From positions 1-43,790 of the IMG/VR virus record IMGVR_UViG_3300033145_000463: DNA of 43,790 nt; one strand, written 5' to 3'. The position numbers and the translations under genes were made by a program. This DNA is from a virus. The first letter of the stretch is position 1; each line of letters begins with the position of its first letter. This document shows positions 1 through 43,790 of the stretch, in pieces. The notes below the pieces were generated by a model, which was not told the DNA's origin, did no database searches, and saw only the letters and a list, made by a program, of their open reading frames with translations.

Positions 1-114
1 AATAGTATTGCCGCCTTTCTTAGCAGCTTCTTTTCCTATTGTTTCTTTGAGTGTTTCAAGTGATTCATCTGTAAAGATGTTTACACCCTCGACCTTTAAG
101 TCTTTTAACTCGGT
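1..114. repeat. Left copy of 114-bp terminal direct repeat
   Basis: These bases are identical to 43677-43790. The repeat lies inside a coding region that reads in frame from position 1 into 43676, so the natural molecule is circular or circularly permuted and the repeat is most simply the overlap left by assembly. A true packaged direct terminal repeat is possible but less likely because the gene would then be split at the ends of the virion DNA. Confidence 0.95.
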
Positions 115-8073: not shown

Positions 8074-8190
8074 CTATTTATTAGTTAGTATTATTTGTTT
8101 AGTGATATCTTTGCAATTATACCAAGTGCCAGGCTTTAAGTCGTTGTCTAAAAAGTTATTGAATTTGATTGCTAAGTCTTGATTTTCCAT
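8074..8190 (-). CDS. Small hypothetical protein after the NAMPT gene
   Basis: 38 residues (MENQDLAIKFNNFLDNDLK at the start; then GTWYNCKDITKQ). The ATG lies inside the end of the NAMPT-like gene, overlapping it by 19 bases, and the stop is six bases before the next gene, so translation coupling is plausible. Unknown function. Confidence 0.5.
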   Translation of the reverse strand: MENQDLAIKFNNFLDNDLKPGTWYNCKDITKQIILTNK

Positions 8191-9647
8191 AGTTTTTTAC
8201 GTATATCGCTTAAAGATGTTTCTTTGATTAATGATCCATTAAGAAATATTGTTTGTAATAATCCAGAATTTTCTTCTTTAATAGAGCATTGATCTTTGAC
8301 TTTAATAATTCCATTTTCCTTGTAAACTTGCAATAGTCCTTTTGCTGACTTTTTTATTCCATCGTCTGTAACAGGATCTTTGTAAATATCCCTACCTATT
8401 CCATTAATTTCTCCATAAGTAGCCTTCATTGCAAATCCATAAGTATCTCTGGTATTATATTGGTAAGTATAACTACCTACTCCAAATACAATATTTGAAC
8501 TTGCAAGTCCTTTTCGTTCTAATCTTTCACATATTTCATTTGCCCTTTCTAATGTAATACTATCACCATAAATTACTCCTATATGGGAATCAAGAACCTT
8601 ATATCCTTTAGAATTTCTTGTACCGCTAAATGTCTCCCATAATAATTCTACAACTCCTTTTCCTGTTGGCGATTGTGGAGCCGGATCAATTTCTGGCCTG
8701 TTAATACCACAAATTATTTCAACAGGATCGCCGCTATCTGGACGAATAACAACCTTCCCGTTTCTTGATAATATTTCATTCTTTAGTTTTGGTAAAAATC
8801 TTGTACACACCCTCCATAAATTCCATGTATCAGAAACAATGCTAACAAGTCCATTTGGATAAGTTTCTGTAATCAATCTCTTAAATGTCCCTATCTCATC
8901 ATCCATAGTGCCCATACTCATAACAGAATGTTCGGTTGCCGGAATACTCACTGCCACCATTTCCTTTGATGGATCAGCATTATAATATTCTTTAAGGTAA
9001 TAGACAGCAGGGATAGTGTCAGAACCAACAAACGAAAGAAGATGTCCTGCTCCACTTGCCATAGCCGCCTCTAATCCGCTCATTCCTCTCATAGAGAAGT
9101 CGTGAGCCTGAAAAGGAATATGATCTTTATTATCACAAGTTTTATCAGACCATTTCGTTAATATATCTTTGTATTCTTTAGCAATAGTAGATGAAGTCAT
9201 TGGCAGCCATAATTCCGTTGACATTATTGTTTCAAGAAAGTTTGTAATCCAAAAGAATTCTGGTAGTGTATTTACAATTGTAAGCATAGGAACACCAATA
9301 GGACAAACAGTACCTTCCGGTAATGCTTTTACTTTTATGGGTAAATATCCTAAGTCATGTAAATCTTCTACATGTTTAGTATTAGCTTTTTCTCCGAAAT
9401 AATTAAAATACCCTTCTTTAAAAGAATTTATAACCTCTATTTTCGGGAGGCTAAAGAAGTTTTCGTCAAAGTGTTTGGTTATTTTCTTCAAAAAAGCTTG
9501 TATTCCAAACACTACAACTCCGTTTTTTGTAGCTGCATACTTATCGCTTCTCGGCGTCCAATTAGAATACACCTTATTCGTTCTTTTTGGATATTGAAAT
9601 GGATGGCTTTGCTTATACGCATCTGATACTAATAAACTATTTATCAT
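8172..9647 (-). CDS. nadV: Nicotinamide phosphoribosyltransferase homologue (NAMPT/Namat)
   Basis: 491 residues, the full length of NAMPT. Family marks: DAYKQSHPFQYP (9-20), FSMRGM (184-189), GSDTIPAV (208-215), the catalytic-His region SIPATEHSVM with H240, VSDTWNLW (271-278) and IRPDSGDP. NAMPT joins nicotinamide to PRPP to give NMN. In the phage pathway NARP1 a homologue instead joins nicotinamide to ADP-ribose pyrophosphate, giving NAD+ directly. Its ATG overlaps the stop of the PRPP-synthetase-like gene (ATGA), and no NMN adenylyltransferase is in the window, which favours the NARP1 reading. The substrate cannot be told from sequence by eye. Confidence 0.92.
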   Translation of the reverse strand: MINSLLVSDAYKQSHPFQYPKRTNKVYSNWTPRSDKYAATKNGVVVFGIQAFLKKITKHFDENFFSLPKIEVINSFKEGYFNYFGEKANTKHVEDLHDLGYLPIKVKALPEGTVCPIGVPMLTIVNTLPEFFWITNFLETIMSTELWLPMTSSTIAKEYKDILTKWSDKTCDNKDHIPFQAHDFSMRGMSGLEAAMASGAGHLLSFVGSDTIPAVYYLKEYYNADPSKEMVAVSIPATEHSVMSMGTMDDEIGTFKRLITETYPNGLVSIVSDTWNLWRVCTRFLPKLKNEILSRNGKVVIRPDSGDPVEIICGINRPEIDPAPQSPTGKGVVELLWETFSGTRNSKGYKVLDSHIGVIYGDSITLERANEICERLERKGLASSNIVFGVGSYTYQYNTRDTYGFAMKATYGEINGIGRDIYKDPVTDDGIKKSAKGLLQVYKENGIIKVKDQCSIKEENSGLLQTIFLNGSLIKETSLSDIRKKLWKIKT

Positions 9648-10489
9648 AACTGTATTTTAAATTGATTAATATTATCTATATCTTTAAATGAATTAGTGCA
9701 AAATACTTCATTGAAGTGCTTATTAAGCTCTTCAATCCCTTTGCTGAAAATTCCATGAGTAACGAATAAATATAAGTTCCCTGCATTTTTCTTTTTCAAC
9801 TCTTTGGCTATTCCGATAAATGTGCCACCACCATCACATATATCATCAACAATTAAACAGCATTTTCCTTTAATGTCATTTGCAAAAACTTCAAATCCTG
9901 TCAATGTTCCTGTTTTCGTATCTCGAATTTTATCACATTTAATTATTTCATGAAACAGTCCTGTCTCCATTAATTTATTTGCTTTCTTATTAGCCCCTGC
10001 ATCTGGAGATATAAGAGTTATTTCAGCATTATCATATTCAGCAATATAATGATAAGCCCACTCTACATACTCATTATTTGGTATATTTTCACAATTATTT
10101 ATTAATGCAGGAGCTACGTCTGAATGAGAATCTAATGTGTAAACTTTATCAAAATTCATAGAATTAATAAGATTGGCAAATACTTTCAAGCTAAACGATT
10201 CTCCTTCTTCACATTTTCTATCCTGTCTTGCATAAGGAATATATGGCATAACCAAATCGAAAACTTTTATTCCTGCTTGCTTCAATGCGTCATATGTTAT
10301 TAGTAATTTAATAATATCATCTCCGGTTGTAATTCTGGCAGTTATTATAACCTTAACTACTTTTTTAAAGTCAATATTAGTGTTTAACTTAATATGCCAC
10401 TCGCCACCATTAAACTGAAACATATCGTATTCAATTTCAGGTTGAACAACTGGAGTAAACTGTGAATCTAAATTTAATGTACGTGTCAT
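9644..10489 (-). CDS. prs: PRPP-synthetase homologue (Prs or ADPR-pyrophosphate synthetase)
   Basis: 281 residues, shorter than bacterial Prs (about 315). Motifs: FNGGEWHIKLN (26-36), PYARQDR (85-91), TLDSHSD (118-124), SPDAGANKKA (161-170), flexible-loop DKIRD (186-190) and the PRPP-loop VDDICDGGGTF (214-224). Prs moves a pyrophosphate from ATP to ribose-5-phosphate; in NARP1 a Prs-like enzyme (Adps) does this to ADP-ribose. The LDSHSD segment departs from the usual VDLHAEQ, so substrate change is possible. Four-base overlap with the NAMPT gene shows that the pair is expressed together. Confidence 0.9.
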   Translation of the reverse strand: MTRTLNLDSQFTPVVQPEIEYDMFQFNGGEWHIKLNTNIDFKKVVKVIITARITTGDDIIKLLITYDALKQAGIKVFDLVMPYIPYARQDRKCEEGESFSLKVFANLINSMNFDKVYTLDSHSDVAPALINNCENIPNNEYVEWAYHYIAEYDNAEITLISPDAGANKKANKLMETGLFHEIIKCDKIRDTKTGTLTGFEVFANDIKGKCCLIVDDICDGGGTFIGIAKELKKKNAGNLYLFVTHGIFSKGIEELNKHFNEVFCTNSFKDIDNINQFKIQL

Positions 10490-10513: not shown

Positions 10514-11215
10514 TCATTTCTTTCCTTTGTGACTTTCCGGTAGTGTTTTTCTCCGATCTAAGCCTATAAGCTCAACATAGTTAAACATTTCGTTAAATCT
10601 GCTTACCATCTCAACTCCATACCATTGCTTACACCTATCCCAGTCGTAATTGCTTGTAATGATACATGGAATTCCGCGCCTTTGAAACTTCAGGTATTCC
10701 ATTTCTAATACTAAATTCATCACATTTATTCGCTCTCCAAAGCAAACAACCTCTTTTTGATCTTTCGTTCCCTCCCGTCCTAAATCATTATAAGTATTTA
10801 TAATCTTGTCGTTTTTTGTCAAGTCAAATTTTGTCAAGTCAGCTTTATAGCTAAAAACGATTTCCAACACTTCATTGACCTCGAAATTCTTATTATAGCT
10901 ACTGTTATTTTTCTTATACCATTGCGATATAACCTCAAAAACCATTATAGCAAGTGATTTTCCACGCCCTACATTTGACTTAATATAAAGTCCTTTTTTT
11001 AAATCAATCTTGTCTGGTATATTAAAAAACCAATGATATAACGTATTAAAAAAATCCTTATTTTCACTATCAATAACAAACTCAGGCCTTATTGCTGTAC
11101 CAATTTGTATTATTATTTCCTTGAATTTGTCCGCAGGGAAATTAAAGCGATCTGTACGAAATTTAATATTTCCGCAACTCTGTAAAGCGTATTTTATGGT
11201 TTTGTTGTCTATCAT
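10514..11215 (-). CDS. DnaC-like helicase-loader ATPase
   Basis: 233 residues. Walker A variant SNVGRGKS (80-87, first Gly replaced by Ser), Walker B-like YNDLGRE (142-148), sensor 1 ITSNYD (186-191) and a candidate Arg finger SRFNEM (205-210). This is the AAA+ layout of DnaC/DnaI loaders, which place the replicative helicase on DNA. It follows the replisome-organizer-like gene by two bases, a common pair in phages that use the host helicase. No phage helicase or polymerase is in the window, so host replication proteins are likely recruited. Confidence 0.8.
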   Translation of the reverse strand: MIDNKTIKYALQSCGNIKFRTDRFNFPADKFKEIIIQIGTAIRPEFVIDSENKDFFNTLYHWFFNIPDKIDLKKGLYIKSNVGRGKSLAIMVFEVISQWYKKNNSSYNKNFEVNEVLEIVFSYKADLTKFDLTKNDKIINTYNDLGREGTKDQKEVVCFGERINVMNLVLEMEYLKFQRRGIPCIITSNYDWDRCKQWYGVEMVSRFNEMFNYVELIGLDRRKTLPESHKGKK

Positions 11216-43052: not shown

Positions 43053-43790
43053 ATTTTCATTGTCTTTTCTTATTTTACTTAATAAAGCAGCTCTGTCACT
43101 TATCTTGATATCCTCCTCATCACAATACTTCACAAACTCTGAATTCGTTGTAATATGTGATAGCTCAGTAGCACCTTCGCCACCTTCATTTCCCCCTCCT
43201 CTACCGTCTTTTTTGACTACAATACCCTGCTCTGTCATAAAATTTGCCATATCAATTTTTACATCAACAGGTTTTTCTGTTTTATCTCGTAGCTCTTTGC
43301 CGTCGATCTTAATTATTAACTCATTCTCATCATTGTAAGCAAGATCACGAGACATACGATAGACCTGTGTTAATGATTGCTTATTCCATCCCTGTGGTAA
43401 TTCATCAGGCATAACAGCTTTTATCCTATCATTGATCTTTGCAGATGTTTTATGAGCATTAAACGAGTTTGATAACTCTACTTTATCTTGCTCTAACGTG
43501 CCGATAGTACCTTGTAATTTTTCAACAGTCGTTTTTAGATCGTCAATTTTCTGGTTGGGCTCAATTTTTGCATCTGTCAAAGTTTTGTCGTTTGATGCTT
43601 TTAATAGGTTTTCAATAGTTTTGCCTTCGAATGACAACCCGCCGGCATCACGAAGTCTTTTGACTTCCATTTCAACAATAGTATTGCCGCCTTTCTTAGC
43701 AGCTTCTTTTCCTATTGTTTCTTTGAGTGTTTCAAGTGATTCATCTGTAAAGATGTTTACACCCTCGACCTTTAAGTCTTTTAACTCGGT
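43035..43790 (-). CDS. Putative capsid scaffold protein, C-terminal part
   Basis: Continuation of the gene that starts at 219; bases 43677-43790 duplicate 1-114. The stop is at 43035. Residues about 75-286: coiled coil (KIDDLKTTVEKLQGTIGTLE), a middle with DELPQGWNKQSLTQVYRMS, a Gly-rich linker (KKDGRGGGNEGGEG) and a short C-terminal helical domain, which is common in scaffolds that bind capsid subunits through their end. Read alone, this part would seem to start at an internal Met (43670). Confidence 0.7.
   Translation of the reverse strand, partial: TELKDLKVEGVNIFTDESLETLKETIGKEAAKKGGNTIVEMEVKRLRDAGGLSFEGKTIENLLKASNDKTLTDAKIEPNQKIDDLKTTVEKLQGTIGTLEQDKVELSNSFNAHKTSAKINDRIKAVMPDELPQGWNKQSLTQVYRMSRDLAYNDENELIIKIDGKELRDKTEKPVDVKIDMANFMTEQGIVVKKDGRGGGNEGGEGATELSHITTNSEFVKYCDEEDIKISDRAALLSKIRKDNENFDMSK
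43677..43790. repeat. Right copy of 114-bp terminal direct repeat
   Basis: Exact copy of 1-114. Base 43676 is the last unique base; the scaffold gene reads in frame across the join, which supports circular closure. Confidence 0.95.

Follow-up and report, generated by a model that had tools for sequence, protein, structure and literature searches.

NARP1 is a known phage pathway, encoded by a pair of Prs-like and NAMPT-like genes, that restores NAD+ from the fragments left by bacterial suicide defences. The reactions of the two products, the ADP-ribose pyrophosphate synthetase Adps and the nicotinamide ADP-ribose transferase Namat, have been demonstrated (PMC12774641; PMC13232231), and the pairs characterised so far rescue cells whose NAD+ an NADase has depleted (PMC12774641). 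For the Namat of the Bacillus phage SPbetaL1, crystal structures with nicotinamide and NAD+ (PDB 9w5w, 9w5x) define a clamp that grips the adenine of ADP-ribose pyrophosphate; its helix follows the pattern GSX(T/S)X(Q/N)X(N/V)TRD, in which positions 3 and 7 are aromatic, and the third residue of its loop is Arg, or else Lys or Tyr with a stacking residue directly after it (PMC12774641). The structure and selectivity of Adps are described in the same work as still to be resolved (PMC12774641). NadV/NAMPT enzymes, such as those of V09 and Matisse and the H. ducreyi NadV (HdNadV), share the fold and the catalytic His/Asp/Arg core with Namat but form NMN and have no clamp aromatics, reading GGGLLQ at this site or, in the case of HdNadV, GAQTYQRNTRD.

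We analysed the 43.8-kb genome of an uncultivated phage, IMG/VR virus record IMGVR_UViG_3300033145_000463 (hereafter the window, meaning the whole record of 43,790 nucleotides). It carries an exact 114-bp direct terminal repeat, indicating that the phage genome is probably complete and that the absence of a gene from it is meaningful. Few Shine-Dalgarno-like 4-mers (upstream of only 4 of the 58 ORFs of at least 80 aa), a GC content of 33% and the nearest cellular homologues of the pair described below together point to Bacteroidota as the probable host phylum. Megablast of the first 24 kb against deposited phages returned 0 matches. The terminase has relatives at a single distant locus, so synteny was of no use as evidence. 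Most genes lie on the minus strand; among the few on the plus strand is one for a 318-aa pentapeptide-repeat protein (window:22494-23450).

A first-pass annotation had placed a pair of Prs and NAMPT homologues with a four-base overlap at 8172-10489 and read it as NARP1, and we found the ORFs exactly there (Table 1). The two genes are adjacent on the same strand and overlap as those of the SPbetaL1 NARP1 operon do. We conclude that the pair is a clear new case of the known NARP1 pathway and not a new kind of system, and it is very probably the NARP1 operon of a phage, itself probably infecting Bacteroidota, that rebuilds NAD+ after NADase defences have acted. This reading draws on homology, gene order and overlap, catalytic residues, an intact clamp, placement in trees and the failure to find an NMN adenylyltransferase (NMNAT). 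On this reading, NARP1 is present in an uncultivated phage whose genome is complete and for which the search of deposited phages gave no close relative at the DNA level.

Table 1. Features of the predicted NARP1 locus and of the ends of the window.
Feature	Position	Strand	Basis
Gene 1 of the pair: predicted Adps, a 281-aa ADP-ribose pyrophosphate synthetase resembling Prs	9644..10489	-	Pfam, PHROG, trees, AlphaFold model
Gene 2 of the pair: predicted Namat, a 491-aa nicotinamide ADP-ribose transferase resembling NAMPT	8172..9647	-	Pfam, PHROG, trees, clamp residues, model
ATGA stop/start overlap of Adps and Namat, four bases	9644..9647	-	same -4 spacing as SPbetaL1 NARP1 operon
Adps signature HSDV, residues 122-125, starting at the catalytic His (HADQ/HAAQ in housekeeping Prs)	10115..10126	-	A->S in 62/63 Adps
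DDICDGGGTF, residues 215-224, counterpart of E. coli Prs DDMIDTGGTL (T->G, L->F)	9818..9847	-	63-Adps alignment
Selectivity-clamp loop K36-Y37, in loop TPR-SDKY	9537..9542	-	Lys at 3 and stacking residue at 4, published pattern (PMC12774641)
H240 in TEHS, equivalent to the catalytic His that is phosphorylated in the NAMPT/Namat core	8928..8930	-	aligned with SPbetaL1 H245
Selectivity-clamp helix GSYTYQYNTRD, residues 391-401, with adenine-stacking Y393 and Y397	8445..8477	-	pattern of PMC12774641
Co-directional gene, 233 aa, 24 bp ahead of Adps, P-loop-like motif KSNVGRGKS	10514..11215	-	ORF list
Direct terminal repeat, 114 bp, exact	1..114, copy 43677-43790	.	

In SPbetaL1 (Adps WIT26982, Namat WIT26983), Adps precedes Namat with a four-base overlap, as in the window, and Namat has the full catalytic core and adenine clamp. 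The SPbetaL1 pair differs in its Adps, only 37% identical to that of the window and with DDLSSFGGTF in place of DDICDGGGTF, and in its clamp loop, which has R40 where the window has K36-Y37. The pair of Escherichia phage JohannRWettstein (Bas63, MZ501086) has DDICDGGRTF and DPHSNV in Adps, GSYTYQYMTRD in Namat and a K-W loop, SDKW, that matches the SDKY pattern of the window; however, its genes lie 45 bp apart, its Namat is 593 aa long with inserts, and identity to the window is 48% for Namat and 35% for Adps. The closest relative found was another IMG/VR record (IMGVR_UViG_3300022916_000006, L107), with 71% identity in Namat and 60% in Adps, but there a gene for a 322-aa protein resembling P-loop kinases and 5'-nucleotidases (L107:5024-5992) separates the two. 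An IMG/VR scan with the single window Namat protein retrieved four relatives and one with a Namat alignment retrieved hundreds; the single window Adps protein retrieved 0.

Pfam and PHROG scores far above chance leave no doubt that the two genes are members of the Prs and NAMPT superfamilies. The Prs homologue matched Pribosyltran_N (3.5e-15), Pribosyltran (7e-9) and phrog_619, ribose-phosphate pyrophosphokinase (2e-89), and its AlphaFold model has the Prs fold (pLDDT 87.5). The NAMPT homologue matched NAPRTase (6e-45), NAMPT_N (6e-9) and phrog_448, nicotinamide phosphoribosyl transferase (1e-201). Its model (pLDDT 86.4) has as top PDB matches the Namat structures 9w5x/9w5w, with a TM-score of 0.93, compared with 0.84 for human NAMPT; HdNadV, too, has a solved structure, in complex with NMN (PDB 9ke8). 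In sequence it is 55% identical to SPbetaL1 Namat, 50% to ICP1 Namat and 48% to Bas63 Namat, against 33-36% for NMN-forming phage NAMPTs.

Of the residues mapped as catalytic or clamp-forming in the crystal of SPbetaL1 Namat with NAD+, none is missing from the window protein, and such changes as occur are conservative. The core residues F189, R192, D215, H245, R306 and D308 of SPbetaL1 are identical (F184, R187, D210, H240, R302 and D304), as are other NAD+-contacting residues (D13, Y15, T398, R399 and D400, corresponding to D9, Y11, T399, R400 and D401). In the clamp itself, the aromatic Y396 is kept as Y397, F392 is replaced by Y393 and R40 by K36 followed by Y37, so that both the helix and the loop follow the published Namat pattern. 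The clamp-less entrance of NMN-forming NAMPTs is not seen in the window; the enzymes of KVP40-like V09, Matisse, Novosphingobium and Methylosinus, the last adjoining a NadM gene, carry GGGLLQ or GGALLQ at the clamp helix site. Each sequence test that could be applied identifies the NAMPT homologue as a Namat.

Since both genes are remotely homologous to Prs and NAMPT, the pair might instead simply supply NMN, with Prs making PRPP, NAMPT making NMN and a host NMNAT adenylylating NMN to NAD+, an alternative already named in the first-pass annotation. Namat also keeps activity on PRPP in vitro, making some NMN (PMC12774641). A control for this reading is HdNadV, which yields NMN on expression in E. 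coli (PMC6095924). In our trees the window protein sits among Namats including those of SPbetaL1, Bas63 and ICP1, split from NMN-forming NAMPTs with support of 100/99-100, and forcing it to join the NAMPTs gave p-AU 0.016. HdNadV, however, branches near SPbetaL1 inside the Namat clade, whose members therefore do not all share one activity. We therefore rejected as insufficient the argument that a protein uses ADP-ribose pyrophosphate because it groups with Namat. HdNadV also retains TYQ and NTRD in its motif; a place in the clade is thus no proof that an enzyme uses ADP-ribose pyrophosphate, and nor is the TRD portion of the motif.

What HdNadV lacks is both adenine-stacking aromatics, and its loop has Glu at position 3; no Prs-like (Adps) gene is annotated on its plasmid, pNAD1 (NC_005329.1). 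We suggest from the tree that HdNadV lost the clamp secondarily, in what looks like a Namat that has naturally turned back into a NAMPT, and the comparison amounts to a natural experiment consistent with the published clamp model. Judged on sequence, the discriminating features are the two clamp aromatics and an Adps partner, and the window has both. Grouping the window Namat with HdNadV was rejected (p-AU 3.5e-5). The window Prs homologue falls outside housekeeping Prs, and no match to PF01467 (CTP_transf_like/NMNAT, nucleotidyltransferase) was found in the phage genome, although positive controls matched in 14 of 14 genomes. Among the Pfam families listed for the 72 other window ORFs there was likewise no NMNAT and no other NAD enzyme, bearing out the first-pass annotation on this point; those families are usual phage functions (terminase, ERF, YopX, methylase, HNH, tail). 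The intact clamp and the Adps partner thus disfavour plain NMN supply, which we consider very improbable, and, together with the catalytic residues and the trees, support NARP1.

The Prs homologue retains the catalytic residues common to Adps and Prs (R88, D90, R91, H122, D163, K187, R189, D215, D216 and D219) and is 35-37% identical to the Adps of SPbetaL1, Bas63 and ICP1. Trees split these Adps and the Bacteroidota chromosomal copies from housekeeping Prs with support of 100 and 100/100, the Prs outgroup comprising only E. coli and five Bacteroidota housekeeping enzymes, and the window protein fell on the Adps side. Placing it as the first (basal) Adps branch was not rejected (p-AU 0.32). 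For both proteins, then, the check for clustering with ribose-5-phosphate Prs or NMN-forming NAMPT that the first-pass annotation had proposed came out the opposite way. The window Prs homologue is predicted to use ADP-ribose on the basis of its membership in the Adps family.

In an alignment of 63 Adps with 6 Prs, three residues beside the active site set the two groups apart with few exceptions. E. coli Prs has DDMIDTGGTL, which we take, from established knowledge of Prs structures, to be the ribose-5-phosphate loop. At the Thr of this loop, present in 6/6 Prs, 58 of the 63 Adps have Gly, and the Leu after the loop (6/6 Prs) is Phe in 63/63 Adps. Including the Ser that follows the catalytic His, the signature positions are conserved in 58-63 of 63 Adps and 0 of 6 Prs. 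The first-pass annotation had noted that the LDSHSD segment departs from the ribose-5-phosphate enzyme; the departure is real, but it is a family-wide feature (HSDV/HSEV in Adps) and not peculiar to the window protein. Its other hint, that a short Prs homologue of 281 residues would suit an altered substrate, has no diagnostic value, as archaeal Prs chains in the PDB are 284-287 aa long. We accordingly set aside protein length and the single LDSHSD segment as stand-alone evidence, the one being common to archaeal Prs and the other to the whole Adps family. As a tentative proposal, the Adps-wide changes (loop Thr to Gly, post-loop Leu to Phe, post-His Ala to Ser) might constitute the switch from ribose 5-phosphate to ADP-ribose within the Prs fold. 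If so, the window enzyme would be a compact test case for Adps selectivity; the candidate signature is in any case a by-product useful to specialists.

In the proposed mechanism, Adps would move pyrophosphate from ATP onto the 1'-OH of ADP-ribose, giving ADP-ribose pyrophosphate, and Namat would then swap the pyrophosphate for nicotinamide. Because NAD+ would be made by Namat in one step, an NMN adenylyltransferase would not be needed. During infection, the phage would in this way rebuild NAD+ from ADP-ribose and nicotinamide, the products of NADase defences (TIR, Sir2, SEFIR or similar). The two reactions and their substrates are carried over from the characterised relatives; we further infer that the pair is expressed during infection and that an NADase defence is the target it counters in the host of this phage. 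That the genes are instead decayed, inactive copies retained by chance is barely credible, as both frames are open and the catalytic and clamp residues are all intact. We found no support for decay in the window, the nearest parallel being one ICP1 isolate with an interrupted Namat gene. In that case, which emerged from comparing ICP1 isolates (L013 versus L020), a stop codon near the start interrupts the gene in one isolate, whereas intact copies are found in others, so NARP1 may at times be lost.

The 233-aa gene just upstream of Adps is a neighbour of the pair, and its position does not imply membership in the pathway. Its product, which has a degenerate Walker-A-like motif, had no match in Pfam or PHROG. 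In contigs L119, L120, L136 and L141, distant homologues of this ATPase-like protein are encoded no more than a few kb from Namat, and this upstream gene alone recurs near NARP1.

Chromosomal pairs in Bacteroidota (Tenacibaculum, Winogradskyella, Flavobacterium, Pedobacter and others) resemble the window in Namat, at 57-60% identity, and in Adps, with DDICDGGGTF, but they are often split by ADP-ribose-processing genes and have an NrtR-type regulator at the head. A Namat-alignment search gave 80 Bacteroidota-dominated genome loci, each fetched as 13 kb or less. The clamp motif was present in 80/80, and an Adps gene lay within the fetched sequence in about 55 of them, usually upstream. Such a Namat gene occurred in 6 of 99 sampled genomes of the phylum, with the clamp motif in all six, and in 8 of 60 genomes of one family. 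At several loci (L061, L037, L033, L047, L058 and L099), Adps and Namat flank genes for an NrtR-Nudix regulator, PARG, a macro domain, KptA/Tpt1, DUF4291, NADAR and a metallophosphatase.

These loci look like ADP-ribose salvage islands, a setting in keeping with, and supporting, the substrate assigned to the family. A chromosomal NARP1 shown to be active is known from Paenibacillus (PMC12774641), and earlier work gives a general account of gene neighbourhoods centred on ADP-ribose (PMC9503650), so we present the islands as context and claim no discovery; the many Adps-Namat pairs in them suggest a cellular reservoir for the phage pathway. The islands, with their NrtR, PARG, macro domain, KptA/Tpt1, NADAR, DUF4291 and phosphatase genes, also raise the alternative that the window pair makes NAD+ from ADP-ribose as NARP1 does, but during infection chiefly recycles ADP-ribose from ADP-ribosylation, RNA repair or similar processes and does not mainly serve to counter NADases. 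We regard this as unlikely, given that the Pfam families listed for the window include 0 ADP-ribose-handling or ADP-ribosyltransferase families and that, as noted above, characterised pairs rescue NADase-depleted cells.

Current annotation libraries would misname both window genes. NCBIfam calls the window Namat a 'nicotinate phosphoribosyltransferase' (equivalog NF006629, above cut-off) and Adps a 'ribose-phosphate diphosphokinase'. Because NF006629 also matches the characterised SPbetaL1 Namat above cut-off, NARP1 genes are likely misnamed in general. The family phrog_12872 matches the window Prs homologue through its N-terminal part and the NAMPT homologue through its C-terminal part, which raises the possibility of naturally fused Adps-Namat proteins. 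At four loci, which include crAss-like phages, a HAD-like protein of about 130-147 aa with the motif FDFDNT is encoded between Namat and Adps (L008:5481-5912, L009:5496-5924, L005:1902-2288 and L028:5363-5806); the one that was scanned had no Pfam match. A diverged clamp motif, GA(F/Y)VYSV.VSRD, occurs in Brochothrix phage A9 (L017), next to an Adps gene, and on an L. reuteri plasmid (L216), where the adjoining gene encodes an uncharacterised protein of 283 aa.
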